From contig CAIXEA010000152.1 of the NCBI GenBank assembly GCA_903918315.1, positions 18,797-82,796 on the forward strand: 64,000 nt of DNA, in the 5' to 3' direction. The DNA is from an uncultured Acetobacteraceae bacterium. Its GTDB lineage: Bacteria; Pseudomonadota; Alphaproteobacteria; Acetobacterales; Acetobacteraceae. The notes beneath the pieces were generated by a model. The model was not told the origin of the DNA, did not search any database, and saw only the letters and a program-made list of their open reading frames with translations. Positions 18,531 through 46,349 of this stretch are shown here, one piece after another (within the stretch, counting starts at the first letter, position 1; every line of letters begins with the position of its first letter). A program made the translations under genes and the position numbers.

Positions 18531-18818
18531 GTGAACCGCTTCGAGTGGGATCCGAACAAGGCGAGGACAAATCTCGCCAAGCATGGCGTTGCGTTCGAGG
18601 ATGCGTGTATGGTGTGGGACGACCCACGGTACATACTGCGGCAGGATCGCCACGAGGATGGCGAAGAACGATGGCAGATCATCGGCTATGCGCACGGCGT
18701 CGTCATTCTCGTCGTATGGCACACCTACCCCGACCCGAATGACGAAGAGAGGGTCCGAATCATTGGCGCGCGCAAGGCGGAGCGAAGGGAACGGAGCGCC
18801 TATGAGCAAGGCATCTGA
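18531..18818 (+). CDS. brnT: BrnT family toxin (type II TA ribonuclease)
   Basis: VNRFEWDPNKARTNLAKHGVAFEDACMVWDDPRYILRQDRHEDGEERWQIIGYAHGVVILVVWHTYPD...RVRIIGARKAERRERSAYEQ. Confidence 0.88.
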   Translation: MNRFEWDPNKARTNLAKHGVAFEDACMVWDDPRYILRQDRHEDGEERWQIIGYAHGVVILVVWHTYPDPNDEERVRIIGARKAERRERSAYEQGI

Positions 18819-21800
18819 CGCCGCGCAACGCGAACGCCTGCTGCGGCTCTCGTCGCTGCCTGATGAACTTATTGACACCGATGACCTTCCGGTGATCGCG
18901 GACTGGTCCACCGGCGTCCGTGGTGGTACGCCGGGCGAAATGCGGGCGCGGGCAGCGGCCCGACCGGCGCCGCCCTCTCCGATTGAGGCCTTTATCGCGC
19001 GCTGGCAGGGCGGGGAAGGTGGGCAAGAGCGCGCGAATTACGCGTTGTTCCTATCCGAACTGTGCGATGTCCTCGGCGTGCCGCGCCCCGACCCAGCTTC
19101 CGCCAATCACGAAACGAATGACTACGTTTTCGAGCGTTCGGTGCGGGAAAAATCCATCGACGGCAGCCTCTCGCTCGGCCGGATCGACCTCTACAAGCGT
19201 GGCAGCTTCGTCCTGGAGGCCAAGCAATCCCGCCAGATCGGCGGCAGCAAGGAAATCACCGGCCAGACGGACCTGTTCGGCCGCTCCGAACCGGCCCGAC
19301 GCGGCACCCGCGGGGCGAATCGTGCCTGGGACGTGCTGATGCTCAACGCCCGCCGCCAGGCCGAGGATTACGCCCGCGCCTTGCCCGTGGACCATGGCTG
19401 GCCGCCCTTCATCCTGGTCTGCGACGTCGGCCATGTGCTGGAGGTCTACGCCGACTTCTCCGGCCAGGGAAAGAACTACGCCCAGTTCCCCGACCGCCAG
19501 TCGTTCCGCATCTATCTGGAGGATCTGCGCCAGCCCGAAACCCGGGAAAGGCTGGTCCGCATCTGGACCGACCCGTTATCGCTCGATCCCGCGCGCAAAT
19601 CTGCCCGGGTTACGCGCGAAATCGCCGATCGGCTGGCATCGGTGTCAAAGGCGCTGGAAGCGGACCATCATCGGCCCGAAGACGTGGCGATGTTCCTGAT
19701 GCGCTGCCTGTTCACCATGTTCGCCGAAGATGTCGGTCTGCTGCCCAAGGCGTCGTTCCGCAACCTGCTGGAACGTTGCGAACAGGACCCGGATCGGCTG
19801 CAACCGATGGTGGGGCAGCTCTGGGAGGCGATGGATCGCGGCGATTTCGCGATTGCCATTGAGGCGCGGGTCAGGCGCTTCAACGGCGAGTTCTTCAAGA
19901 ACCGCACCGTGCTGCCGTTACGGCGCGAGGAGATCGGAGAACTGCGGCAAGCCGCATCGTATGATTGGCGGGAGGTCGACCCCTCGATCTTCGGCACGTT
20001 GCTGGAACAGGCGCTGGACACCGGGGAACGGAAACGCCTGGGCGCGCACTACACGCCGCGCGCCTACGTCGAGCGGCTGGTCGTCGCAACCGTCATCGAA
20101 CCGCTGCGCGCCGACTGGGACCGCGCGCTGTCCACGGCCGAACGGCAGAAGGCGGAAGGCCGCATGAACGACGCGGTGGCGACGATCACCGCCTTCCATG
20201 AAGCGTTGTGCCGGACCCGGGTTCTCGATCCCGCCTGCGGCACCGGCAATTTTCTGTATGTCTCGCTGGAGTTGCTGAAACGGCTGGAAGGCGAGGTGCT
20301 GGAGGCGCTGGCCGACCTCGGCGGGCAGGAGGCGTTGAGCGGGCTGCAGGGCCATACCGTCGATCCGCACCAGTTCCTGGGGCTGGAGATCAATCCGCGT
20401 GCCGCCGCCATCGCCGAGTTGGTGCTGTGGATCGGCTATCTGCAATGGCATTTGCGCACCCAGAACGGGTTCCCGGGCGATCCGATTCTGAAGGCGTTCC
20501 GCAATATCGCGGTGAAAGACGCGGTGCTGGAAGGCGATCGCTCCGTCGTCATGCGCGGCGGTGTGGCGGTGGAGCAGGAATACGGCGCCCCCCGCCAACC
20601 CGCCTGGCCAGAGGCGGAATTCATCGTAGGCAATCCGCCGTTCATCGGCGGAAAGGATATTCGTGCCCGGTTGGGCGACGACCGAACCGAGGCGTTGTGG
20701 GCGGCGCACCCGGCGATGAACGAATCCGCCGATTTCGTCATGTATTGGTGGGACCACGCAGCCGGCTTGCTGACTCGCAAGGCGTCCGTGTTGCGCCGGT
20801 TCGGGCTGGTGACGACTAACTCCATCAGTCAGGTGTTCCAGCGCCGCGTGATGGAGCGGTATCTGACCGCGAAGGTGCCCATTTCCCTGGTGATGGCGGT
20901 GCCGGACCACCCCTGGACCAAGGCCGGCAAGGATGCGGCGGCAGTGCGCATCGCGATGACCGTGGCCGAAGCCGGCACCAGGGAAGGGCGCCTGCTGGAA
21001 GTCGTGCGCGAGGATGCGTTGGACACCGACGCGCCGCTGATCGAATTTTCAGAAACGGAAGGGTCGATCCATTCCGATCTGACGGTGGGCGTGGATGTGA
21101 CCAAGGCGGTGCCACTGCGGGCCAACGAAGGGCTCTCATCACCCGGCGTGAAATTGCATGGTGCGGGGTTTATTGTGACGCCAGCGGAGGCCGGGTATCT
21201 TGGGCTCGGACGCCGGGCGGGGTTGGAGAAGCATATCCGGGAATACCGGAATGGGCGCGATCTGACGGCGCGGGCGCGCGGGGCGATGGTGATCGATTTG
21301 GATGGGCTTGGAATCGAAGAGATTCGCGATAGATTTCCGGAAGTGTATCAGCATGTCTATCTACGGGTCAAATCGGAACGAGATACCAACAACGAAGAAT
21401 ATGGCAGATTGAACTGGTGGTTGTTCGGTCGGAAAAACACGTTGATGCGTGGCTTCACGCATGGTTTGCGGCGCTACATCGCGACGGTGGAGACGCCCAA
21501 GCATCGCGTCTTCCAGTTCCTCGACGCATCGATCCTGCCGGATAATATGATCGTCGCCATTGGATCGGACGACGGGTTTATCCTGGGAGTACTGTCCGCC
21601 CGCATCCATGGAGTCTGGACCGCGATGCAAGGCGGGACATTGGAGGATCGGCCCCGTTACACAAAGTCGCTGTGCTTTGATCCGTTCCCGTTCCCGACTG
21701 CCGACGACCTCCAAAAACACCGCGTCCGCACTATCGCCGAAGACCTGGATGCCCACCGCAAGCGCGTCCTCGCCGACCACCCGCACCTCACCCTCACTGG

Positions 21801-22368
21801 CCTCTACAACGTGCTGGAGAAGCTTCGCGCCGGCACCCCGCCCGATGCCCTGGACAGGGCCGAGCGCCGCATCTTTGACGACGGCCTCGTGCTGATCCTC
21901 AAGGAGTACCACGACCGCCTGGATGCCGAGGTCGCCGCCGCCTACGGCTGGCCCGCCGACCTCGGCGACACCGAAATCCTCGCCCGTCTCGTCGCCCTCA
22001 ACCGCGAGCGGGTGCGGGAGGAAGCGACCGGCCTCGTTCGCTGGCTGCGCCCCGAGTATCAGATCCCCCGCTTCGGCACCGCGCAGCAGAAAGCCCAGCT
22101 CGACCTCGCTGGCGGCGCGATGCGTGCGCCCCAGGCCGCGAAGACCAAGGCGACGTTCCCCACCGACGACTCGGCCCAGACCGCCGCCGTCATGGTCGCG
22201 CTCGCCTCCGCCACCGCGCCACTCGATACCGACGCGCTCGCGCTGCAATTCCGCCAGGGCCGCAGAATCGCCCCCAAAGTCGCCGCCGTGCTCGGGGCGT
22301 TGCAGCGTATGGGCTACGTCACCGCCACCAATGCCGGCCGCGCCTGGTCGCTGCGCCGCGCCGCCTGA
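18802..22368 (+). CDS. MmeI-like/type IIG-IIL restriction-modification enzyme (class I SAM-dependent DNA methyltransferase) with BrnA-like N-terminal extension
   Basis: ATG 18802 overlaps brnT by 17 bp; N-term LPDELIDTDDLPVIADWSTGVRG (BrnA-like); RIDLYKRGSFVLEAKQ (PD-ExK-like); VLDPACGTGNFLYVSLEL (motif I); IVGNPPFIGGKDIRARLGDD (motif IV, NPPF). Confidence 0.87.
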   Translation: MSKASDAAQRERLLRLSSLPDELIDTDDLPVIADWSTGVRGGTPGEMRARAAARPAPPSPIEAFIARWQGGEGGQERANYALFLSELCDVLGVPRPDPASANHETNDYVFERSVREKSIDGSLSLGRIDLYKRGSFVLEAKQSRQIGGSKEITGQTDLFGRSEPARRGTRGANRAWDVLMLNARRQAEDYARALPVDHGWPPFILVCDVGHVLEVYADFSGQGKNYAQFPDRQSFRIYLEDLRQPETRERLVRIWTDPLSLDPARKSARVTREIADRLASVSKALEADHHRPEDVAMFLMRCLFTMFAEDVGLLPKASFRNLLERCEQDPDRLQPMVGQLWEAMDRGDFAIAIEARVRRFNGEFFKNRTVLPLRREEIGELRQAASYDWREVDPSIFGTLLEQALDTGERKRLGAHYTPRAYVERLVVATVIEPLRADWDRALSTAERQKAEGRMNDAVATITAFHEALCRTRVLDPACGTGNFLYVSLELLKRLEGEVLEALADLGGQEALSGLQGHTVDPHQFLGLEINPRAAAIAELVLWIGYLQWHLRTQNGFPGDPILKAFRNIAVKDAVLEGDRSVVMRGGVAVEQEYGAPRQPAWPEAEFIVGNPPFIGGKDIRARLGDDRTEALWAAHPAMNESADFVMYWWDHAAGLLTRKASVLRRFGLVTTNSISQVFQRRVMERYLTAKVPISLVMAVPDHPWTKAGKDAAAVRIAMTVAEAGTREGRLLEVVREDALDTDAPLIEFSETEGSIHSDLTVGVDVTKAVPLRANEGLSSPGVKLHGAGFIVTPAEAGYLGLGRRAGLEKHIREYRNGRDLTARARGAMVIDLDGLGIEEIRDRFPEVYQHVYLRVKSERDTNNEEYGRLNWWLFGRKNTLMRGFTHGLRRYIATVETPKHRVFQFLDASILPDNMIVAIGSDDGFILGVLSARIHGVWTAMQGGTLEDRPRYTKSLCFDPFPFPTADDLQKHRVRTIAEDLDAHRKRVLADHPHLTLTGLYNVLEKLRAGTPPDALDRAERRIFDDGLVLILKEYHDRLDAEVAAAYGWPADLGDTEILARLVALNRERVREEATGLVRWLRPEYQIPRFGTAQQKAQLDLAGGAMRAPQAAKTKATFPTDDSAQTAAVMVALASATAPLDTDALALQFRQGRRIAPKVAAVLGALQRMGYVTATNAGRAWSLRRAA

Positions 22369-29984: not shown

Positions 29985-32900
29985 ATGCTCGTTACGACTG
30001 GCACACGGGTTTCTGTCCGCGGCCTGCTGTGGGATGTCGTCGAACGCCAGCCGTTGGGCGCCCAGGACCGCTTGCGGTTGCGTTGCGCCTCGGACGACCT
30101 GTCGGGGCTGGAGTGGGATTTTCTGCATCCGCGCGAAGCCGTGCAGCCGGTGCGGGCGGCCCTTGACCCGGAACAACCGGCGCCGCTGGCATCCTGGCGG
30201 CTTTTCCATGAGGCTTGCCTGCTGGAGCAGGTTCCCGGCGCGCGGGCGATCATGCTCGCCCAGCCGGGCCGTCTGACGATCGAACCCTATCAGCTCGTTC
30301 CGCTGATGCGGGCGCTGGAACTGCCCCGCCCCCGCCTGTTGCTGGCCGATGGCGTGGGGCTGGGCAAAACGATCGAGGCCGGGCTGATCGCCGCGGAATG
30401 GATCGCCCGGCGGCGCGCCCACCGCATCCTGATCGTCGCCCCGGCCGGCCCCTTGCTGCGGCAATGGGCGCAGGAGATGCGCTACCGATTCGGCCTGGAT
30501 TTCACCGTGCTGGCCGATGCGGCCGCCTTGCGCGACGAACGCCGGGCAATGGCGCTTGGCGGCAACCCGTTCGGCAACCGGGCCTTCATCCTGACCGCGA
30601 TCGACTTCGCCAAGCAAGAGACGGTGCTGGAAGAGCTGGAGCGGGTGTCGTGGGACCTCGTGATCATCGATGAGGCGCATCATTGCGTGGCCTCGACCGC
30701 GACGACCAATCGGGAGGCCACGCTGCGGCGCCGGCTGGCCGAAGTGCTGGCGCGTCAGACGGACGGCCTGCTGCTGCTGACCGCCACGCCGCATGACGGC
30801 TACGATCCGCATTTCGCCTCATTGATCGCCTTGCTGGACCCGGGTCTGGTCGATGGCGCCGGCGGCCTCGATGGCCTGGCCTACCGCAGGCACGTGATCA
30901 GGCGGTTGAAATCCCACATCGCCGACACCGCGACTCACCGGCCGCTGTTCCATGACCGGGTTATCATTCCTGTCCCAATCCGATCAGACGATGCCGCGGT
31001 GGGGCGCTTTCATCGGGCTCTGGCGGCGTTGGTGGAACCCCGGATCAGCAAGGGTGCGGGCACCAGGACATTCGCGGATGCGCTGGCTTTCGTGAGCCTG
31101 CTGAAGCGATCGGTCTCGACCATCGCCGCCTGCGTGCAGACCTTGCGCGTGGTCGCGGATCGCTATGCGGGGCTGGCGGACCAGGCCGAGACCGCGGCCA
31201 TCCGCCGCGATCGCCAGCGGACGCTGCGGGCCTACCGGCGGCAGGCGCTGCGCTTTGGCGTGCTGGACTCCCAGGCTGAAACCGACATGGACCGATTAGA
31301 GGCGGAGGACATCGCGGCGGACCTGCACGCCACCGGCGCGGTCGTCGATACATTACGACACCTGATCGAACTCGGCGAGGCCGCCCGGTCGGCCGACCCA
31401 AAACTGGCGGCGCTGGTGACCGAACTGCGCCTGATCCGCGCCACCGAACCGAATGCCAACGTACTGATCTACACGGAATATGCCGACAGCCAGGCCGAAG
31501 CGGTGCGGGTGCTGCGCGCCACGAGCGGGATCCATGGGGCCATTCTGACCATTGGCGGCCAGGACAGCGAGGAAGCCCGTACGCTGGCCGCGGAACGCTG
31601 CGCCACCGAAGACGGCCTGATCCTGGTCAGCACCGACTCGCTGGCCGAAGGGCTCAATCTCCAGCAGCGCTGCCATCATCTGATCCATCTCGATCTGCCG
31701 TACAATCCGAACCGCCTTGAACAGCGCAATGGCCGCATCGACCGCTACGGCCAGGCTTTGCCCCCGGAAATCCGCTATCTTTGCCTGGCGGGCACGTTCG
31801 AGGAGCGGCTGCTCCTGCGGTTGATCGCCAAATATGAAAAGGCCCGCGCCCATCTGACCTTCATGCCGGACACGCTGGGCCTGACGGCGCCCGAGGATCA
31901 GCTGGGCCGCGGATTGCTGATGGGGCTGGCGGAAGAGCAGATCAGCCTGTTCCCGGACAAACCCGCCCCGCTGCGCACCCTGGATCTGGCCGCCGGCGCG
32001 GATCAGACCGAGGCCTATCGCGACCTTCTGCACGAGATCGACCGCGCCTATGAGGGGTTCGACCGCCTGGCGGCCCGCCATGGCTGGTTTGCCGGGCAAG
32101 GGTTGAACGCCGGCGCCGCGCAGATGGCGATGGCGACAAAGGCCGGGCAGACCGCCGCGCGCGACGCGGCCCGCGTGGATCTGCCCGATTTCCTGTCCCG
32201 CGCGACCAACGGGCCGCTAGAACCTGCCCGGTGCACAAAGGTGCACCGCACAGGCTCTAATCGATTGTTTAATCCCGTGATTCACGGCTCCGGTGATTCC
32301 ACCTCCGCCGATCACGCTCTAACCGACGGGGCACTGGCCGGTCGCGTGCATCCGGCCGTGCGCCAGACCATCAGCATGATCCGCCGGGTCGGCGACAACC
32401 GGGTCAGTGTCACCCGGGGGGATCAACTGGCCCTGCTGCTCACCTACTCCATCGACATCAGCGGCCCCCGGCACCTGGCGTTGCGGCGGGTGATCGCGGT
32501 GCTGCTGACGGAGCATGGCGCAGCGGTCACGCTCGACACACCGGATCAGTGGCTGCCATTCGGGGACCCGGATCGGACGCTGCACCGGCCCGATGCCTGG
32601 CGCCTGTTTTCGACCTGGGCGCCGGCACGGATGCACGAGGCCGAGGCGGCCGCGGCGGCGGCGATGGGCGTCATTGATGCGGCGTTCATCGCCGAACAGC
32701 AGGCGACGCAACAGGCTGAGCGCACCCGTCTCGACGAATGGCTGGAGCGGCGAGCCGATCGGCTGTGCGGTCCGCGCCGGATCATTGTGCCCGATTTGTT
32801 TGGTGATACGCCTTCGGGCCCCGCCTGGCCCCATGCCAGCACCGCCGCCGCCCGGCTCGCGGGGTTCGCGGGCGACGCCTCGGTCACGGGGGAGGCGCGG

Positions 32901-33017
32901 CTGGAAGCAGAGGCGCTCGTGTCGCTGTATCGCCAGCGGTGCCAGGACATCGACCCGCCCTACCAGTCCAGCGTGTACCCGCTCGGGCTGCTGATGCTGG
33001 TGCCGGCATGCGCCTAG
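29985..33017 (+). CDS. SNF2-like helicase, DISARM DrmD-like
   Basis: RLLLADGVGLGKTIEAGLIAAEW (Walker A); LVIIDEAHHC (DEAH); LLTATPHDGYD; EGLNLQQRCHHLIHLDLPYNPNRLEQRNGRIDRYGQ. Confidence 0.85.
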   Translation: MLVTTGTRVSVRGLLWDVVERQPLGAQDRLRLRCASDDLSGLEWDFLHPREAVQPVRAALDPEQPAPLASWRLFHEACLLEQVPGARAIMLAQPGRLTIEPYQLVPLMRALELPRPRLLLADGVGLGKTIEAGLIAAEWIARRRAHRILIVAPAGPLLRQWAQEMRYRFGLDFTVLADAAALRDERRAMALGGNPFGNRAFILTAIDFAKQETVLEELERVSWDLVIIDEAHHCVASTATTNREATLRRRLAEVLARQTDGLLLLTATPHDGYDPHFASLIALLDPGLVDGAGGLDGLAYRRHVIRRLKSHIADTATHRPLFHDRVIIPVPIRSDDAAVGRFHRALAALVEPRISKGAGTRTFADALAFVSLLKRSVSTIAACVQTLRVVADRYAGLADQAETAAIRRDRQRTLRAYRRQALRFGVLDSQAETDMDRLEAEDIAADLHATGAVVDTLRHLIELGEAARSADPKLAALVTELRLIRATEPNANVLIYTEYADSQAEAVRVLRATSGIHGAILTIGGQDSEEARTLAAERCATEDGLILVSTDSLAEGLNLQQRCHHLIHLDLPYNPNRLEQRNGRIDRYGQALPPEIRYLCLAGTFEERLLLRLIAKYEKARAHLTFMPDTLGLTAPEDQLGRGLLMGLAEEQISLFPDKPAPLRTLDLAAGADQTEAYRDLLHEIDRAYEGFDRLAARHGWFAGQGLNAGAAQMAMATKAGQTAARDAARVDLPDFLSRATNGPLEPARCTKVHRTGSNRLFNPVIHGSGDSTSADHALTDGALAGRVHPAVRQTISMIRRVGDNRVSVTRGDQLALLLTYSIDISGPRHLALRRVIAVLLTEHGAAVTLDTPDQWLPFGDPDRTLHRPDAWRLFSTWAPARMHEAEAAAAAAMGVIDAAFIAEQQATQQAERTRLDEWLERRADRLCGPRRIIVPDLFGDTPSGPAWPHASTAAARLAGFAGDASVTGEARLEAEALVSLYRQRCQDIDPPYQSSVYPLGLLMLVPACA
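32218..32321 (+). mobile_element. 104-bp palindromic MITE-like element, copy A (inside helicase ORF)
   Basis: TA-bounded TAGAAC...GCTCTA; ungapped match to reverse complement of 62073..62176 with 7 differences by eye. Confidence 0.8.
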
Positions 33018-36000
33018 ATACGGGTGATTGCTCGGTCGCCGGCCCCGGTCTGCCGGAGCCGTTCCTGCGCTTCGAACTGGCGCCCACGCTGACGCGGCTG
33101 GGCTTGTTGACGGAGCCCGACCCGGCGGGTTGGCTGGCCCTGCGGGCCGGCGTCCGAAGCCTCGGCCGGATCGCCGGGCCGCAACGGGTGCATCAACATG
33201 TGATTGTCCCACTGGCCCGTCTGCTGGGATACGAACCGCCGAACCGGGGCGCGCCGGTGACGACGCGGGATGGGCCCGAGGATGGCGGATGGCTGCTGAG
33301 CGGGCCGGACAGTACCAGCCTGCGGGTCTGGCCGGTGGGGTCTGACACCGTGCTGGATGCGCCCCGGCGCAGTGGCCGCGCCTACCGGTTCAGCCCGTCC
33401 CGGTCCGCATCCCGGGTTCTGCGGGCCCGGGGCGAATGGGCCGGCGTGATGACCGATGGCCAAACGCTGCGCCTGCTGCTGTGTGAACCTGGGGAGCCCG
33501 ACACCCATCTGAGCATTCCCCTCAGTTGCTTTGCCGATGCCCGGCCACCGGATGCGGCCCGACTGTTCACCGCCCTCTCCGCGCCGCCGGGCGTCGCGGC
33601 CTTGCCGGCGGTGCTGGCGGCGGCGCGACTGCACCAGACCCGGGTCACGAACGAACTGCGCCGCCAGGCGCGCGGGGCGATCGAGGGCTTTCTGCAAGCC
33701 GTGCTGGACCGCAATCCGGCGCACGGCGCGACGGCCGCCGCCATCTGGGCAGAAGGGCTGGTGCTGGTCTACCGCCTGCTGTTCATTCTGAAGTTGGAGA
33801 GCGCGCCCGCGGATGGCGGCGCCTTCAGCTTTGCCGCGACACAACTCTGGCGGGGGGCCTTGTCCCCCAATCAGGCGCTGGGGCCGCTGGTGCGCCGGCA
33901 TTTGGACCTGGGGCATGACACCGGCCGCATGCTGGAGGACGGGCTGCGCACCCTGTTCCAGGTGTTCCGCGACGGCCTGTCCTGCGGCGGTCTGTCGATT
34001 GCTCCCCTGGCCGGCTCCCTGTTTGGCCCGGATGCCGCCCCGACCCTGGATGCGATGCCCTGGGGTGAGCGGGCCGTGGCGCTGCTGTTGGATCAGCTCC
34101 TCTGGACGACGCCCAAGGGCCGCCCACGGGAACGCGTGCATTATGGTGCGCTGGATGTGGAAGATCTGGGCCATGTCTATGAGGCGCTGCTGGAGCTGGA
34201 GCCAGGCATCGCCATCGGACCCATGGTCCGGATCCGGCGGGCGAAATTGGAAATCACCGTGCCCGGGACCATCGGGGAGGAGCCGATCCCCGCCGGCCGG
34301 TTCTTTCTGCGCAGCGGCGATGGCCGCAAAACAACGGGGTCCTATTACACGCCGCGGGCCTTCGTCCGCTTCCTGGTGCACGAAACCCTGGCACCGAAGC
34401 TCGCCGCGGTCAGCCCCGACGACGACCCCGACCCCTGCGCGATCCTGGCGCTGAGCGTGGTCGATCCGGCGATGGGCAGCGGTCATTTCCTGATCGAGGC
34501 CTGCCGCGTGCTGGGCGAAGCCCTGTACGCCAGTTGCCGCCTATGCGACGAAGCGGCCCGAGCGACGCCATCGGAAAGCCGATCGGCTTTGCTCCAGGAG
34601 CGTTTGCGGGCCCTGCACCGGCTTGACCCGGCTTTGCCCGGTTTTCTCCCCAGCCACGCCGCGGAGGGGGTCGCGCGGTCACGAGCCTTGGCGATCTGCC
34701 GGCGGCTGGTCGCGGTCCATTGCCTCTATGGCGTGGATCGCAACCCCTTGGCGGTCGAACTGGCGAAGCTCGCGCTTTGGCTGGAGTGTCACGCCGAGGG
34801 GCTGCCGCTCACCTTCCTCGATCACCGGCTGGTCGCGGGGGATGCCATCACCGGTCCCTTCCTGGCGGATATGACCCGCCTTCCCGTCGGTGGCCACATC
34901 CTCGACCCCCTGCTCGCGCGCGGCGTCGCCGATCGGCTGAGCGCTTCGGTGGATGAGGCGCTGGAGGCGGTGCGGGTGCTGAACGCCGGCATCGGCCGTG
35001 ACCTTGCGGCGCTCGACGCGAAAAGCGCGGCGAAGGCGCGATTGGACGCGGCGCTGGCGGGGATGCGGCGGCTGGCCATCGCGTGGTCGGGCGCGGTGGC
35101 CCTGGGAAGCCGGGATGGTGACGACGAATGGCAGGCGCTGGCCCGAACCGTCGCTGACACCGGTGCCTGGCCCGCCCGCCTTTCCACCCGGCAAAGCCAG
35201 ATGCTGGAGGCCGGGCAATCCGCCCTGCCCTGGGACCTGACGTTTCCCGAGGTCTTTCAACGCGGCGGGTTCAGCGCGGTGCTGAGCAACCCACCCTGGG
35301 ATGTCATTCAGTACCGCACGGAAGACTTCGTGGCCCGCTATGACCTGTCCGTGCTCGACGCCCCCACGAAGCGGGAACGGCGATCGACTGAAGTGCGGGT
35401 TCTGTCCGATCCGGCGGTTCAGGCGGCGTTCGACGCCTATAAGGCGGGCTACGATCGTCAGAAGCGCCTCGCCAACCGCTTGTTCCGCCATCAGTCGGCG
35501 CAGGCCGGGGGCGCCCGAACCGCCAGCAATCCCGACGCGTTTCGCCTGTTCGCTGAACGCAATATCCGCCTGGCCGGTCCGGATGGCGGGCTGGGCGTGC
35601 TCTATCCGTCCGCGTTTCATGGCAACGAGGGCACGACCGGCCTGCGGCGCCTGTATTTCGCGCAGACACGGATCGATGCCTGCCTGTCGTTCGAGAACCG
35701 CCGGAAGTTCTTCGATATCGACAGCCGGTTCAAATTCGCCCTGGTGGTCGCCCACAAGCCCGGCCCGACCCAGTCACTGCGCTGCGGCTTTTATCTGGAA
35801 TCCATGACGGATCTGGAGCATCCGGGCCGGGTGATGGACTACGATGCCGATTTTCTGGCGGCCTCCGGCGGGCCCAATGGTACGCCGCTGGAATTGCGGG
35901 GTTCGGCCGAATTGAGCATCGCCCGGCGGCTGTTCGACGGCCATCCCACGCTATCGGCGTGGTGCGCCCGGCACGGGATCCAACTCGGCCGCGACCTGCA

Positions 36001-36697
36001 TATGACCGATGACGCGGCCCATTTCGTGCCGGCGGAAGCGGGCGGGTTCATGCTGCACGAAGGCAAGACGTTCCACCAATTTACCGATGTCTGGAAAACC
36101 CGTCCGCGCTACGCAGTGGCCGAGGCCGCCTTGCATGCCAGGCCATCGATCCTCTCGGCGGCGGGGCATTTCCGGCTCGCCTTCCGCGACATCGCGAGCG
36201 CCACGAATGAGCGCACCATGATCGCCTGCATCGCCCCGCCCGGCACGGTGTTCGGCCATACCGCGCATGTGGAAAAACATCCCCACGGTCGGCCGGTTGC
36301 CCATGCCCTGACCCTGTGCGCGCTGCTGAACAGCTTCCCCTTCGACTGGCTGGTGCGGCAAAAGGCAACAGCGCATCTGAGCCAGTTCATCGTCGGCAGC
36401 CTGCCCGTTCCGGATCTGACGGACGCGCTGAGCCAGCAACTGGCCGAGAGCGCCCGCCGCCTGTGTTCCAATCATGCCGGCTATGCCGACCTGTGGTCAG
36501 CGGAGGCGCAGCCGGCGGGCTGGCCGATCATGCCGGAGGAAAGGGTGCGTTGGCGGCACCGCGCCGCGATCGATGCGACGATCGCCCATGCCTACGGCCT
36601 TGATCGGCGGCAATACGCGCATGTGCTGGCCAGTTTCAGTCACCGAAGCTTTCCGGATGCGGTGGGATTATGCCTCACCGCGTTTGATCACCGATAA
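33008..36697 (+). CDS. Eco57I-type N6-adenine DNA methylase, DISARM DrmMI-like
   Basis: VVDPAMGSGHFLIEACRVLGEAL (motif I); VLSNPPWDVIQY (NPPW); start overlaps helicase stop by 10 bp. Confidence 0.85.
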   Translation: MRLDTGDCSVAGPGLPEPFLRFELAPTLTRLGLLTEPDPAGWLALRAGVRSLGRIAGPQRVHQHVIVPLARLLGYEPPNRGAPVTTRDGPEDGGWLLSGPDSTSLRVWPVGSDTVLDAPRRSGRAYRFSPSRSASRVLRARGEWAGVMTDGQTLRLLLCEPGEPDTHLSIPLSCFADARPPDAARLFTALSAPPGVAALPAVLAAARLHQTRVTNELRRQARGAIEGFLQAVLDRNPAHGATAAAIWAEGLVLVYRLLFILKLESAPADGGAFSFAATQLWRGALSPNQALGPLVRRHLDLGHDTGRMLEDGLRTLFQVFRDGLSCGGLSIAPLAGSLFGPDAAPTLDAMPWGERAVALLLDQLLWTTPKGRPRERVHYGALDVEDLGHVYEALLELEPGIAIGPMVRIRRAKLEITVPGTIGEEPIPAGRFFLRSGDGRKTTGSYYTPRAFVRFLVHETLAPKLAAVSPDDDPDPCAILALSVVDPAMGSGHFLIEACRVLGEALYASCRLCDEAARATPSESRSALLQERLRALHRLDPALPGFLPSHAAEGVARSRALAICRRLVAVHCLYGVDRNPLAVELAKLALWLECHAEGLPLTFLDHRLVAGDAITGPFLADMTRLPVGGHILDPLLARGVADRLSASVDEALEAVRVLNAGIGRDLAALDAKSAAKARLDAALAGMRRLAIAWSGAVALGSRDGDDEWQALARTVADTGAWPARLSTRQSQMLEAGQSALPWDLTFPEVFQRGGFSAVLSNPPWDVIQYRTEDFVARYDLSVLDAPTKRERRSTEVRVLSDPAVQAAFDAYKAGYDRQKRLANRLFRHQSAQAGGARTASNPDAFRLFAERNIRLAGPDGGLGVLYPSAFHGNEGTTGLRRLYFAQTRIDACLSFENRRKFFDIDSRFKFALVVAHKPGPTQSLRCGFYLESMTDLEHPGRVMDYDADFLAASGGPNGTPLELRGSAELSIARRLFDGHPTLSAWCARHGIQLGRDLHMTDDAAHFVPAEAGGFMLHEGKTFHQFTDVWKTRPRYAVAEAALHARPSILSAAGHFRLAFRDIASATNERTMIACIAPPGTVFGHTAHVEKHPHGRPVAHALTLCALLNSFPFDWLVRQKATAHLSQFIVGSLPVPDLTDALSQQLAESARRLCSNHAGYADLWSAEAQPAGWPIMPEERVRWRHRAAIDATIAHAYGLDRRQYAHVLASFSHRSFPDAVGLCLTAFDHR

Positions 36698-37842: not shown

Positions 37843-38608
37843 TGAGCCGCTCCCGCTCCGCCGCGGCCGCATCCGCGCGGATCATGGTCCAGAGGTCTTG
37901 TTCGATCGCCCGCAGGTCCGGGTCCCGCGCCGACCGCTCCGCCAGCGGCCGTTGGATGCGAATGATCGCCGCCACCCGCCCCGGTCGGCGGGAAAGCACG
38001 ACGATTTGCTGCCCCAGGCGAACGGCTTCGGCCAGGTTATGGGTGACATAGATGGTGGTCGTGCTGGCGCGGGCGATGATGGATGCGAACTCATCGAGCA
38101 GCAGGTCGCGGGTCTGGGCATCGAGGGCGGATAAGGGCTCATCCAACAGCAGGCAGGCCGGCCGCACCGCGAGGGCGCGCGCGATTCCCACCCGCTGGCG
38201 CATCCCGCCCGAGAGCTGGCGCGGCCAGGCATTGGCGAATTCGGTCAGGCCGGTGACCGCGAGGACTTCGGCGATGCGTTCCGCGCGTTGAGGCCGGGAG
38301 AGTCGCGCTGCCAGCACCAGGTCGATGTTGCCGGCGACGCTGCGCCAGGGAAGGAGGGAAAAATCCTGGAACACATAGGTTAGCGGATTGAGGCAGTCCT
38401 CGGCCACCTCACCCTCGATCACCACCGTCCCGGCCGTGGGTGCCAGCATGCCGCCGATGATGCCGAGCAGGGTCGATTTGCCACAGCCGGAGGGGCCGAC
38501 CAGTACCAGCACCTCCCCGGGTTCGGCGGTCAGGGAGAGCGCATTGAGGACCGTCATACCCCCGTAGGCATGACCGACGCTGTCCAGGATCAGGCGCAGA
38601 CCGGTCAT
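37829..38608 (-). CDS. ABC transporter ATP-binding protein (SsuB/TauB type)
   Basis: LVGPSGCGKSTLLGIIGG; LSGGMRQRVGIARALAVRPACLLLDEPLSALD. Confidence 0.93.
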   Translation of the reverse strand: MTGLRLILDSVGHAYGGMTVLNALSLTAEPGEVLVLVGPSGCGKSTLLGIIGGMLAPTAGTVVIEGEVAEDCLNPLTYVFQDFSLLPWRSVAGNIDLVLAARLSRPQRAERIAEVLAVTGLTEFANAWPRQLSGGMRQRVGIARALAVRPACLLLDEPLSALDAQTRDLLLDEFASIIARASTTTIYVTHNLAEAVRLGQQIVVLSRRPGRVAAIIRIQRPLAERSARDPDLRAIEQDLWTMIRADAAAAERERLNAPA

Positions 38609-39618
38609 CGTACCGGCAGGAACCGGGTGTCGAGCATGGATTTCGGATCCCCCTCGCCTTTGACGAGCCCCTGCTCCTTGAACCAGCGCACCTGATCGAG
38701 GACATCGGCCACGTCGAGCGCGCCGCCCTCGTCGTAATAGCCGACACCGTTGAGGATCTTATTCCGCGCGTCCGGGTCGCCGGTGAAGACGTATTTCGTG
38801 ATCAGGCTGATGGCCGCGTCGGTGCTGGCGTCCACAATGGGCTTGCCTTGCGCGTCCAGACGCAGGAAGGCGGCGCGGTAATCGGCCACGCCGCGCTGGT
38901 AGGCCTTGGCGAAACGCCGGAGCAGATCGGGTTTGGTGCCGATCATCGCTGGGGTCGTGAAGACGGCGGTGATCTGGTAGGGCACCACGTCCCCGGCCCA
39001 GCCCAGAATATGGGCCTGCCCGGAGGCCGCCAGCGGCTTGGCCTGGGACGCGATGGCGATCGTCGCATCCACCTGCCCGGTGCTGACGGCGGCGGCCATG
39101 TTGGAGATCTGCTGCAATGGCCGCAGCGTCAGGGATTTGACGTCGAAGCCTTTGGCTTCGGCGATGCGGCCCGCCATGTAGTGGAAGGATGACCCGTACT
39201 GCGTGATGGCGAAGCTGTGCCCGCCGAGCTTGGCGATATCGGTCATGCCGGCGTCATAGGCGGCGTTGGACGCGAGGATGGCCGAACCCTCGTAGCCTTT
39301 CTGCTCATGCAGGGCGCCGCCGATAACCTTCAGCGTACCCTTTTCGGCGAGGTTGAAGAACCCGCCGGTCAGCGCGGTGACCCCGACATCGACATCCCCC
39401 GACACCGCCGCCGCGGCGATGGGCTGAGCGGCTTCGAAGAACCGGAAGGTGAGATCGATGCCTTCGTCGCGGAAATAGCCGCTTTCCTGCGCCATGTAGA
39501 ATGGCGCGGGGGAGAGCGTGTGGAGCAGGCCGAGGCGCAGTGGCTCCGCGGCCTCGGCGGTGAGGGGCAGGCAGAGCAGGCCGGGCAGCAGCCAACGGCG
39601 GGCGAACCAGTCAGGCAT
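38605..39618 (-). CDS. ABC transporter substrate-binding protein (SsuA/NMT1-like)
   Basis: MPDWFARRWLLPGLLCLPLTAEAAEPLRLGLLHTLSPAPFYMAQESGYFRDEGIDLTFRFFEA. Confidence 0.85.
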   Translation of the reverse strand: MPDWFARRWLLPGLLCLPLTAEAAEPLRLGLLHTLSPAPFYMAQESGYFRDEGIDLTFRFFEAAQPIAAAAVSGDVDVGVTALTGGFFNLAEKGTLKVIGGALHEQKGYEGSAILASNAAYDAGMTDIAKLGGHSFAITQYGSSFHYMAGRIAEAKGFDVKSLTLRPLQQISNMAAAVSTGQVDATIAIASQAKPLAASGQAHILGWAGDVVPYQITAVFTTPAMIGTKPDLLRRFAKAYQRGVADYRAAFLRLDAQGKPIVDASTDAAISLITKYVFTGDPDARNKILNGVGYYDEGGALDVADVLDQVRWFKEQGLVKGEGDPKSMLDTRFLPVR

Positions 39619-39816
39619 CAATGGCTTCCAATCCCAGGATCGATCGTCGAACATGGGACAGGTCGCCGCGGCGCGGGTCAAGCGGGTGTACCGCCGGGCA
39701 AGCGATCGGATCCAACAGATGATCGTTTACCGGCCCCGGCAACGCAGCGGCCCGCGCGGCCATCCGCTGACCGAGGTCAAGGGATGCAACCGCGACGGGC
39801 CACCGGTCAGGCCTGG

Positions 39817-40038
39817 TTACTTTTGTGAGGCGCTGTGAGCGTCGACGGTCTTCTTCTGGGCGATGTCGCTGTGCTCATGCGCCTTCGTGGCGCTCTTTTT
39901 GGCGTCCTCGGCCTTGCCAGTGACATGGGCATGCGCGGCTTCGTGATGGAGATTCGCCGCGGCAACGTGGGAAGCAGCGGCCGCGTGATGCGTGGCAACG
40001 GCCGGATGCGTCATCGTGTTGGTACTGGACATGGACAT
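39817..40038 (-). CDS. Small Ala/His-rich low-complexity protein
   Basis: MSMSSTNTMTHPAVATHHAAAASHVAAANLHHEAAHAHVTGKAEDAKKSATKAHEHSDIAQKKTVDAHSASQK. Confidence 0.5.
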   Translation of the reverse strand: MSMSSTNTMTHPAVATHHAAAASHVAAANLHHEAAHAHVTGKAEDAKKSATKAHEHSDIAQKKTVDAHSASQK

Positions 40039-40197
40039 GGTCCTTCTGTGCGAAGCCCGTGACCTGGGCGGACCTCCATCCCGCCGCCACCCGACGCAGC
40101 GTCGACGTGGTGACCGGACGGAGCCCACCAGCTGGGACTCTGCGACCGGACCTTAGGGGCGATGAGGACGGCGGCGGCAGCGGCGGAATATACGCAG

Positions 40198-40240
40198 CCG
40201 CGATCCTAGCAGCGCACCGAAGGCGCTGCTAGGATCGCGG
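40198..40240 (-). terminator. Strong hairpin overlapping the 3' end of the AvcD-like deaminase gene
   Basis: CCGCGATCCTAGCAGCG-CACCGAAGG-CGCTGCTAGGATCGCGG, 17-bp perfect stem; deaminase stop codon (40229..40231) lies within it; no U-tract seen. Confidence 0.6.
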
Positions 40241-41746
40241 GGTCAGATGCCCGGCCAGGGGCCGCAGGGCGAGCTCTTCCATCGTGAGATAGGCGGGATA
40301 GATTACATCGACCATCGGCCGCGCCTCATTCGATGGGTCGAACCAGTCGCGGGCCCGGCCGCCCGCGTCCTTGCGCCGCCCCTTTTGAAAAATATCCTGA
40401 TAGCGTGCGGGGGAAATACCCAGGAACGGCTTGAATTCGACCCGATTGGTGCTGTCGCCTTCCACTTCGATTTCGTTGGCATGCAGGCGTTTGGCCATGC
40501 TTTTGGGGTAGGGCTCGATATAGACGACCCGCCGGATCCCAGCCGCCAGAATATGTTTGGTGCAGTTATGACAGGGGAAGGTGGTGGAATAGAGCACGCC
40601 ATCCTTGATGCTGCGCCCGAGCCGCGCGGCATCGCAAATCGCGTGCATCTCGGCATGCACGACGCGGCCATATTCGGTCAGGTCGAGGATGGATGCGTTG
40701 GCCAGGACGCTTTTCTTCTCGGTCAGATTTTGTACTATATCCGACACGGACCCATGCGCCAGCGCCTTGTCGGACAGCATGCCGTCGTCGCTCAGCCGCT
40801 GGAACAGGTCACGCAGGACCTCCCTTATTTCGGCGGTGTTCGGATCGTGGCCCAGTTTGACATCGCGAAAATCGGGCTCCTCCGAATCCCAGTAGGCGCC
40901 ACCGAATGCTTTCGGAACTTCGTTGCACCCCTGGACGATCAGTTCGCCACCCGGGGAAAAAACCGCCGCGCCGACCTGCCGGGACAGGTCGGTTGACCGC
41001 AACGCGGCCGAAGCCGCTGCATACATGCCCAGTTCGTCGCGGGAGGGTCCGATATCCACGCGGCCAAAAAATGCCTGGATGAAGCGCCCGAGCTGCGCCT
41101 GCATCGCGGTGCGGTTCAACCCATCGATGAAGACGTCGCCGAGATGGAACGTGTCACGCAGCTGCTGGCCGAACTCCCGATCGACTTCGCTGGCATCGGT
41201 TTCGATCAGGTCCTCCGCCTTCTCGGCCAGGGCAATGGTCCGCGTCGTGGGGGACATGGTGCGGCGAAGCTGTTCCTGCAACAAAGCCCGGCGTTCCTCA
41301 CGCGGGCCGTAGGCGGACACCAGGATGAACTGCTTGCCGTAAATCTGGCGCAGAAACGCGACTTCCTCCGGCCGTTTGAGCTGACGGATAACATAGGCAA
41401 TGTTTTCGGCCGGCGTTCCCACATCGCCCGACTCACCCTGGCGCCGCGATCGAATGGCCTTCACCGCCACACGGGCCAGCGCGGCGGCGTCGCCGGTCTG
41501 ACGCCGGATCGCATTGCCATATTTCATTTTCGAATCGGCCTCGGCGAAAAAATCGCCCTCCAGGATCGGAAGACCAGTCGAAATCGCAACCATTTCCTCG
41601 GTCAGCCGAATGGAGACCGGCCGATACCCCACGCGCGCCAAAGCGTCATTCAGCGCCTGCGTCATCGCGTCCATATCGACGCCGATGGGACCGGCAATGC
41701 CAATGAAGAGCTCCGGCCGGGCAATCGGCGATAAGATTTCGGGCAT
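40229..41746 (-). CDS. Anti-phage dCTP/dCMP deaminase, AvcD-like (P-loop N-terminal domain plus zinc deaminase)
   Basis: LFIGIAGPIGVDMDAMTQAL; VVHAEMHAICDAARLG (HAE) and TTFPCHNCTKHILAAGIRRVVYIEPYPKS (PCxxC). Confidence 0.82.
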   Translation of the reverse strand: MPEILSPIARPELFIGIAGPIGVDMDAMTQALNDALARVGYRPVSIRLTEEMVAISTGLPILEGDFFAEADSKMKYGNAIRRQTGDAAALARVAVKAIRSRRQGESGDVGTPAENIAYVIRQLKRPEEVAFLRQIYGKQFILVSAYGPREERRALLQEQLRRTMSPTTRTIALAEKAEDLIETDASEVDREFGQQLRDTFHLGDVFIDGLNRTAMQAQLGRFIQAFFGRVDIGPSRDELGMYAAASAALRSTDLSRQVGAAVFSPGGELIVQGCNEVPKAFGGAYWDSEEPDFRDVKLGHDPNTAEIREVLRDLFQRLSDDGMLSDKALAHGSVSDIVQNLTEKKSVLANASILDLTEYGRVVHAEMHAICDAARLGRSIKDGVLYSTTFPCHNCTKHILAAGIRRVVYIEPYPKSMAKRLHANEIEVEGDSTNRVEFKPFLGISPARYQDIFQKGRRKDAGGRARDWFDPSNEARPMVDVIYPAYLTMEELALRPLAGHLTPRS

Positions 41747-41871
41747 TCGAGGATGACTGCTTCCATGATGGTGCACACAGTTCACCGTACCGTCGCGGAG
41801 TCGCCAAAGCGAGGGCAAAGAGTCACGCCACGGGCTGACCTTTCCCCGCGGGACGTGCTAACCCCCCGCGC

Positions 41872-43683
<1,812 letters not shown>

Positions 43684-44534: not shown

Positions 44535-44702
44535 GAAGCTGTCTCCAATGAAAATAGAAGGGTATTACCCCAGCAATTGCCTGCTGACGCAATCTATTGT
44601 GTTGCGCCCTCTTGAATGAACGCTACGCGGAGCCCAATGATGTTGTGCAACGTCACATGATTGCCACGTTTTCTTTCGCTACGTTCAAAAAGGACTGTTC
44701 CC

Positions 44703-46349
44703 TTGCCAGAAGCACCCATCCGTACGGCGTTGTTCGTCGATTTCGACCAGGTTTATGGTGGACTGTACCGCATTCGACCGGAAGCGGCGGAACGCTTCGC
44801 CACCCAGCCCGACAAATGGCTGCGCTTCTTCGAAGAAGGCCGCCATGTCGGCGGCTTCGACGACAATGAGGACCCGACTCAGCGGGTGATTCTGGTGCGG
44901 AAATGCTACCTCAATCCCGTGGGTTCGGTGCGCAACTCCACCCCGGGCCCCTTCCGCAACGGCGTGCCGGGCCGCGACACGGCCGAAAGCTTCAGCAAAT
45001 ACCGGGCCTATTTCACCCGCGCCGCATTTTCGGTGGTGGACTGCCCGCCGCTGACCAGCCGCGGCAAGAACTCCGCCGATATCGTGATGGCGATGGATAT
45101 CATCGACGCGCTGGGGCACAAAACGCATTTCGAGGAATTCATCATCCTCTCCGGCGACGCCGATTTCACGCCGGTGCTGCTGCGGCTGCGGGAGCATGAC
45201 CGCGCAACGACCATCCTGGGCGATACGCTGGTCGCGGCGGCCTATCGCGCGGCCTGCGACAACCAGGTGCGCCAGCAGGACTTCATCGAGCAGGCGATGG
45301 GCCTGACCGCCCCGCCACCGGGGGCGCGCGACGAAGAAGACCGGATCAACGGCGCCCGCCCATCCGTGATCACCAACGTCACGCAGGCCGTCACCCTGTA
45401 TCTGCGCCAGGGCGGCCCCCGCCCGATCAACCACCTGATCCCGGTGTTCAATGGGTTCCCCGAATTCGTCTACCCCGCGGACGGGCTGAAATGGTTCGGC
45501 TACGGTTCCCTCACCCGGCTGGTGGAGGAAATGGCGCATCGCGAGCCCGCGTTGCAGATCGACAAGAGCGACCCCAGTTTCTGGGTCCTGTCCTGCCTGC
45601 CGGCCTCGGAAGACGGAGATCAATCGCCCGACGACACCGAACTGACAGCCCGCATCATCAGCTGCGTGCGGGAGATTCTGGCGCAGGAACCCGAGCCGGT
45701 CCCGCTTGCGCGGCTCGGTCAGTTGGTGCGTCATGACCTGCCGGAGCTGGGCGATGCCGATTGGCCCGGCGGCGCCCGGTTCGCCGATTTGCTGCGTGAC
45801 GCGCGCGATCCGCATATCGTGGTACTGCCGGAACCGCCCGGCTACGCCCATGACCCGATCGCCCATCCGGCGAATGACGTGCGCCAGCCGGCCGACACCG
45901 AGCCGGGCACGGCGATGCGCGGGCTGGTGGCCAAGATCACCCAGGTGTCCGGTTGCCCGGCGCTGCGGCCCGACGAATTCCGGCTGCTGTTCGAACAGAT
46001 TGCCGCCGAGTTGCAGCAGTTGAACGGCGCCCCGGCCGTGCCCTGGACGCAATGGTATCTGGCCTCGGCCGTCTATGAACGCTGCGCCGAACATGGCGCC
46101 CGGATCACCCGCGACGCCGTGTCGTATATCCTGACCAGCCTGGAAAATGCCGGCTACAACTGGCATGCCGGCGTGGACTATCACACCCGCGACAACCTGA
46201 CGGAGACGTTCCTCGACAACGTGGAAGCGCTTTGCGAGGGCGCGCGGCTGGAGTTGTCGGATGATGAGCTGACGCTGCTGGAAGATTGGATCTGCGATAC
46301 GCAGATCGAACCCCCCGCTTCGATCAACCCGTCACCGGTGGAGCCGTAA
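44703..46349 (+). CDS. NYN domain (LabA/PIN-like) protein with LOTUS/OST-HTH-like C-terminal regions
   Basis: IRTALFVDFDQVYGGLYR...KNSADIVMAMDIIDALGHKTHFEEFIILSGDADFTPVLLRLREHDRATTILG; PLARLGQLVRHDLPELGDADWPGGARFADLLRDARDPHIVVL. Confidence 0.75.
   Translation: MPEAPIRTALFVDFDQVYGGLYRIRPEAAERFATQPDKWLRFFEEGRHVGGFDDNEDPTQRVILVRKCYLNPVGSVRNSTPGPFRNGVPGRDTAESFSKYRAYFTRAAFSVVDCPPLTSRGKNSADIVMAMDIIDALGHKTHFEEFIILSGDADFTPVLLRLREHDRATTILGDTLVAAAYRAACDNQVRQQDFIEQAMGLTAPPPGARDEEDRINGARPSVITNVTQAVTLYLRQGGPRPINHLIPVFNGFPEFVYPADGLKWFGYGSLTRLVEEMAHREPALQIDKSDPSFWVLSCLPASEDGDQSPDDTELTARIISCVREILAQEPEPVPLARLGQLVRHDLPELGDADWPGGARFADLLRDARDPHIVVLPEPPGYAHDPIAHPANDVRQPADTEPGTAMRGLVAKITQVSGCPALRPDEFRLLFEQIAAELQQLNGAPAVPWTQWYLASAVYERCAEHGARITRDAVSYILTSLENAGYNWHAGVDYHTRDNLTETFLDNVEALCEGARLELSDDELTLLEDWICDTQIEPPASINPSPVEP

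Follow-up and report, generated by a model that had tools for sequence, protein, structure and literature searches.

Comparison of the window, i.e. the whole 64,000-nucleotide stretch of DNA under analysis, with related genomes reveals the deletion of a small gene that, in the relatives, is encoded divergently upstream of a putative anti-phage dCTP/dCMP deaminase. The deaminase gene itself has been retained, and our best guess is that the window locus is that of an orphan deaminase. The reading favoured here, with somewhat better than even confidence, is that an AvcD-type deaminase is controlled in its clade by a labile inhibitor protein, and that this deaminase has been orphaned in the window. 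The features on which the analysis is based are listed in Table 1.

Table 1. Window coordinates of the deaminase gene, its motifs and the surrounding features
Feature	Position	Strand	Basis or remark
NMT1-like substrate-binding protein, conserved flank of the deaminase islet	38605..39681	-	Adjoins ABC-F directly in the G310 empty site
Perfect 18-bp inverted repeat, 7-nt loop	40198..40240		Arms 40198-40215 and 40223-40240; spans the deaminase stop codon
Putative anti-phage dCTP/dCMP deaminase (AvcD/NF041025 family)	40229..41746	-	ATG at 41746; 505 aa
PCHNC zinc motif (residues 391-395)	40562..40576	-	P391, C392, H393 and C395 invariant in alignment A2
HAE zinc/catalytic motif (residues 364-366)	40649..40657	-	Invariant in alignment A2
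Degenerate P-loop FIGIAGPIGVD (residues 14-24)	41675..41707	-	Alignment A2; AlphaFold2/Foldseek analysis of the N-terminal domain
Divergent intergenic region, deletion scar of the small protein gene	41747..41871	.	Gaps of 305-316 bp in relatives
Leader of the deleted small gene, still present	41781..41815	+	Comparison with G319; promoter scoring
Remnant of the deleted small gene: its final codons and stop (AGTCACGCCACGGGCTGA)	41821..41838	+	Alignment with G319
ABC-F ATPase, other conserved flank	41872..43683	+	

The window deaminase was compared with several profile collections. Its score against NF041025 ('anti-phage dCTP deaminase'), an NCBIfam equivalog profile with a curated cut-off of 400 bits, was 450.5 bits, over residues 12-457. 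Matches were also obtained to PADLOC dCTPase (E value 9.8e-155), to phrog_9198 (300 bits) and to the Pfam domain dCMP_cyt_deam_1 (61.5 bits). The score against ComEB (TIGR02571) was 48.9 bits, far below the cut-off of 219.45 for that profile. Only a single copy of the deaminase is present in the window genome.

All three of the motifs named in the original prediction were confirmed in the ORF, at the residues listed in Table 1. HAE and PCHxC are kept across 11 of 11 aligned sequences (alignment A2), and the Walker-A lysine is absent from the P-loop, GIAGPIGVD, as it is from those of all 11 of the homologues in the same alignment. The AlphaFold2 model of the protein has a pLDDT of 78.8, with values mostly above 85 in the N-terminal domain. 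Foldseek searches with this model returned dCMP deaminases (human 2w4l and the chlorovirus dCMP/dCTP deaminase 7fh4) and adenylate-kinase-related structures (3h0k and 3lw7); we read the former as matches to the C-terminal domain, and the latter as matches to the N-terminal domain, of the predicted structure.

The original prediction was to be checked against the possibility that the protein would group with the housekeeping dCMP deaminases. In the phylogenetic tree, it is situated instead deep within the anti-phage dCTP deaminase family. The AvcD-family membership that had been proposed is thus borne out by the NF041025 score, by the predicted kinase-like and dCMP-deaminase folds and by the tree, and these sequence data support the identification of the protein as a probable anti-phage dCTP deaminase, not a housekeeping dCMP deaminase. 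It is family membership and a predicted fold that these results establish; the deamination of dCTP and dCMP in this organism, and its trigger, would follow by analogy.

The window deaminase resembles the NF041025/PADLOC dCTPase (AvcD) proteins in its whole-length profile match, in the combination of a degenerate kinase-like domain with a zinc deaminase domain, and in its intact catalytic motifs. It is approximately 31-38% identical to homologues on plasmids of E. coli, Zymomonas and Pararhizobium, and it belongs to a clade in which a divergent small protein gene is situated upstream, a gene that is deleted in the window. The deaminase fold and zinc motifs are held in common with the housekeeping enzyme ComEB, from which the window protein is distinguished by its additional N-terminal kinase-like domain, its sub-cut-off TIGR02571 score and its patchy, accessory distribution.

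The divergent small gene and its deletion from the window

The gap between the divergent deaminase and ABC-F genes measures 125 bp in the window, as originally noted. The corresponding gaps in G319, G321, G235 and G156 are of the longer size indicated in Table 1, and that of G266 is short, like that of the window. The longer gaps contain an ORF of 63-69 codons, oriented divergently from the deaminase gene. In all, 11 relatives, with deaminases that are 49-79% identical to that of the window, carry in this gap a divergent gene for a protein of 61-70 aa.

The conserved small ORF was identified by profile search in only six genomes of the genus (G319, G321, G235, G156, G291 and G316), and all six of these, among the 33 genomes of the genus, possess a close relative of the window deaminase. 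In G316, the small gene is present though the deaminase is found on a different contig from ABC-F. Divergent small ORFs of weaker sequence similarity occupy this position in G014, Devosia sp. Root436, an Afipia MAG, Bradyrhizobium sp. Leo170 and the prophage-like contig L131; the link of small-protein family F1 to the Devosia and L131 sequences is weak (E values of 0.001 and 0.03, respectively), and the profile probability for F1 versus F1b is 84.5. It is apparent that the small gene occurs in every relative examined with a deaminase identity of at least approximately 49%, except for the window and G266, and the data show its linkage to the deaminase within the genus.

The small gene is protein-coding. 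The first and second positions of its codons are more conserved than the third in most pairs, and its summed BLOSUM score was 1171 in frame, as compared with 492 or less in any other frame, in a protein-guided alignment, which favours the true frame. The pN/pS values for six homologous pairs ranged from 0.21 to 0.62 in frame and were higher in every other frame. In a nucleotide-only alignment of the L140 and L144 sequences, the identities at codon positions 1, 2 and 3 were 0.77, 0.93 and 0.44, respectively. A promoter-like sequence, [GC]TGACG-N17-TA[CT][AT][AG][CT], is situated approximately 28-40 nt ahead of the small-gene start in G319, G321, G235 and G156, and a clear Shine-Dalgarno-like sequence (GCGAGGA) precedes the gene in G319 and G321.

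The small protein is predicted to form a two-helix hairpin (pLDDT 88.7). No convincing family was found for it in Pfam or NCBIfam, and comparison with the PDB produced weak matches alone, the best of them to a designed helical protein. The gene that occupies the corresponding position on the Pararhizobium plasmid is listed in its record as encoding a hypothetical protein.

When the window was aligned with G319, approximately 181 bp were found to be missing: of the small gene, only the last six or so codons remain, and the start codon is part of the deleted sequence. The leader that remains has kept a Shine-Dalgarno-like sequence, GCGAGGG (41809-41815), and its -10 element has decayed (TACCGT in the window vs TACAAT in G319); the match to the -35/-10 elements is 9/12 in G319 and 6/12 at the aligned place in the window. 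No copy of the small gene was found elsewhere in the window genome by profile search (best E value 0.3). The deaminase tree indicates that the small gene has been lost independently on two occasions, in the window and in G266.

Small-protein families across the deaminase tree

A scan of viral contigs yielded 31 further deaminases. At least five more divergent small-protein families were observed, viz. F2 (8 loci), F5 (3 loci, one of them on a Pararhizobium plasmid) and F3, F4 and F6 (2 loci each); small families may be undercounted in this survey, in which the upstream sequence was short or masked at some loci. Each of families F2, F3, F4, F5 and F6 corresponds to one clade of the deaminase tree, and F1-F6 are all situated within a single clade of 37 rows, with 99% SH-aLRT support. 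In the other main clade, which comprises 22 rows and includes the E. coli plasmid homologues, no such divergent small family was found. The distribution of the small families tracks the deaminase tree: 7 label changes were required, as compared with a mean of 16.8 after shuffling, and 0 of 200 shuffles gave a value as low. Five contigs were obtained in an independent scan with the F2 small protein, and each of them had already been identified as a deaminase contig; no relative was found in the viral contigs when they were scanned with the F1 small protein alone.

The six families cannot be treated as one, as hhalign revealed no link beyond F1/F1b. Because the families have no detectable mutual homology, a common role for all six is one that we infer from position, orientation and size. 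The mere presence of a divergent ORF was also rejected as evidence for a small gene: such ORFs were observed upstream of the deaminase in 44 of 55 cases, but a mean of 30.5 of 55 is expected from shuffles of the same regions. Since ORF presence alone is not much above chance, it is the homology, the codon pattern and the linkage that carry the case for the small gene.

In the E. coli plasmid homologues, a same-strand ORF of approximately 60 aa, annotated as a hypothetical protein, is situated just upstream of the deaminase gene (L111:705-887 and L112:2688-2873).

Proposed control of the deaminase

AvcD deaminates both dCTP and dCMP, and is held by the labile AvcI RNA until it is freed upon the shut-off of host transcription by phage (PMC10511110, PMC12409362). 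By analogy with the tested members of the family, the deaminase of the present clade would be kept silent in healthy cells. When a phage stops host transcription the deaminase would be released, and the resulting conversion of dCTP and dCMP to dUTP and dUMP would starve phage DNA synthesis. The regulator in this clade would be the divergent, fast-diverging helical protein of 55-75 aa, not a recognisable AvcI-like RNA. The most probable role of that protein is that of a protein antitoxin, a labile inhibitor whose lability would answer the same trigger. In the window, the loss of the small gene and the decay of its promoter would have produced an orphan deaminase.

A more far-reaching proposal is advanced tentatively, with rather less than even confidence. 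A large clade of deaminases would be under the control of hypervariable, divergently encoded protein antitoxins of 55-75 aa, specific to subclades, instead of AvcI RNA, and the window would represent a natural antitoxin-deletion orphan, the deaminase of which has been forced to evolve tolerance or self-control.

The locus may be compared with known systems. As in the AvcID type III toxin-antitoxin system of Vibrio, an AvcD-type enzyme is encoded, beside whose gene a control element is expected; in contrast to that system, an RNA antitoxin was not found, and what the relatives have instead is a gene on the opposite strand that codes for a protein. A full AvcID system at the window locus is not supported. 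The relatives are similar to type II toxin-antitoxin modules in that a small, variable protein gene is located next to the gene for a potentially harmful enzyme. They differ from such modules in that the small gene is divergent, and not co-transcribed, and in that inhibition is a property that we infer; in the window, moreover, the small gene is deleted.

One finding counts against the antitoxin view. The small gene has been lost at least twice, in the window and in G266, and the deaminase has remained intact. If the enzyme were constitutively toxic and the small protein its essential antitoxin, such losses would be difficult to accommodate. These losses are also the best argument for the main rival to an inhibitory role, namely that the small protein is an activator, a phage sensor or an assembly factor, in which case the window orphan would be inactive against phage and drifting to loss. 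The rapid diversification of the small proteins would also fit a phage-facing sensor.

The evolutionary rate of the window deaminase bears on this alternative. With G321 as the outgroup, 52 private changes were counted in the window deaminase and 21 in its partnered counterpart from G319 (CAIUPC010000264.1), a difference of approximately 2.5-fold (chi-square 13.2, p ~0.0003); the corresponding values for the flank genes (window/G319) were 6/9 and 11/10. The deaminase has diverged far more rapidly than its neighbours: the dS between the window and G319 was 1.15 for the deaminase, as compared with 0.41 for ABC-F and 0.59 for NMT1. Since the deaminase value is above those of the flanks, part of the rate difference may be due to allele exchange. 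The acceleration is consistent with an activator or sensor role for the lost protein; it is also as expected if the deaminase adapts to, or relaxes after, the loss of its partner. The dN/dS of the window deaminase is, however, 0.12, and it has no substitution at any position that is invariant among the other members of the clade. These results suggest a deaminase that is intact and under purifying selection, although it evolves more rapidly than the sister that has kept its partner. The enzyme thus seems to be functional, though released from, or compensating for, something. An orphan that is apparently still selected is not what an activator or sensor role would lead one to expect, and that role is considered unlikely.

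Control as in Vibrio, with an AvcI-like RNA from the 125-bp gap or the 3' flank silencing the deaminase, was envisaged in the original prediction. An adjacent RNA does control the tested members of the family (PMC10511110), and the small same-strand region upstream of the deaminase in the E. coli plasmid homologues is compatible with this arrangement. In the window, however, Rfam gave no match of note, RNA from the deaminase strand of the gap was predicted to fold like its shuffles (z -0.17), and the longer gaps of five relatives provided no covariation support (covariation term +0.56). The gap, moreover, is what is left of a protein gene that was divergent from the deaminase. The 3' flank had been described as hairpin-rich; it does contain one perfect 18-bp inverted repeat, but the 129 nt just 3' of the deaminase fold no better than shuffles (z -0.32). 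Although the lack of a signal by Rfam, folding or covariation is no proof that an inhibitory RNA is absent from the gap or the 3' flank, this mode of control is judged improbable. The inverted repeat has no T run, and it does not belong to a genomic repeat family, as the genome contains no other exact match to its arm.

The small gene might, alternatively, be an unrelated passenger, and the deaminase might work alone by means of a built-in control. The persistence of both orphans (the window and G266) would be in keeping with this idea, as would the lack of a divergent family in the main clade that contains the E. coli homologues. The strict linkage within the genus, the restriction of the F2 hits to deaminase contigs and the agreement of the small families with the deaminase tree argue against it, and render it highly improbable.

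In the literature that could be reached, the coverage of which is incomplete, AvcD-type silencing is known for RNA-controlled examples only, and no report of a protein partner of an AvcD-type deaminase was found. If the favoured reading, a labile inhibitor protein, is true of a large clade, then a single effector would be subject to two modes of control that differ in their chemical nature. Defined deaminase/small-protein pairs, together with two natural orphans, would also become available for probing how the enzyme is kept silent. The small proteins turn over rapidly, which suggests that they are in conflict with phage counter-defence. Where defence catalogues list this system as one gene only, a component may be overlooked.

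Genomic setting of the deaminase

The window very probably derives from the Acetobacteraceae, as the relatives that bear a name in public records are uncultured members of that family. A match to the deaminase was obtained in 10 of the 33 genomes of the genus, a patchy distribution. In G319, G321, G235, G156, G266 and G291, as in the window, the gene is located between the NMT1/ABC transporter operon and ABC-F, the G291 locus being spread over two contigs. In G310, the NMT1 and ABC-F flanks are adjacent and the deaminase is missing, i.e. the site is empty. The shared flanks and the empty site of G310 indicate, therefore, that the deaminase constitutes a small accessory islet within a region whose gene order is otherwise conserved. 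Although the dCMP_cyt_deam_1 domain is held in common, this patchy presence and empty site, the two-domain architecture, the NF041025 score above its cut-off and the ComEB score far below its own make it hardly credible that the protein is a housekeeping dCMP deaminase serving thymidylate synthesis.

The deaminase had been placed among metabolic genes. This description holds for the immediate neighbours (the NMT1/ABC transporter operon, ABC-F and a luciferase-like monooxygenase), but not for the wider surroundings, as restriction-type genes are present 3.5-23 kb away. One of these (18583-22368, + strand) encodes a strong match to a Type IIG restriction enzyme-methyltransferase (PADLOC PDLC03627, 1542 bits). 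At 29985-36697 (+ strand), a DrmD-like helicase gene is followed by one for a DrmMI/Eco57I-like methylase, with no space between them for drmA/B/C. The methylase is found beside the same operon in G319, G321, G235, G156 and G310, which suggests that this is a core locus in the genus.

Other genes were noted closer to the deaminase. A short Ala/His-rich ORF just downstream (39817-40128, - strand) is 83% identical in G319, and was not found adjacent to the deaminase in the remaining relatives of the comparison. On the ABC-F side, the third gene from the deaminase (44661-46349, + strand) encodes an NYN-domain (PIN-like RNase) protein. In another genome of the family, a related deaminase (L087; G013:C1:600312-601641) is present in three neighbouring pieces and is apparently decaying.
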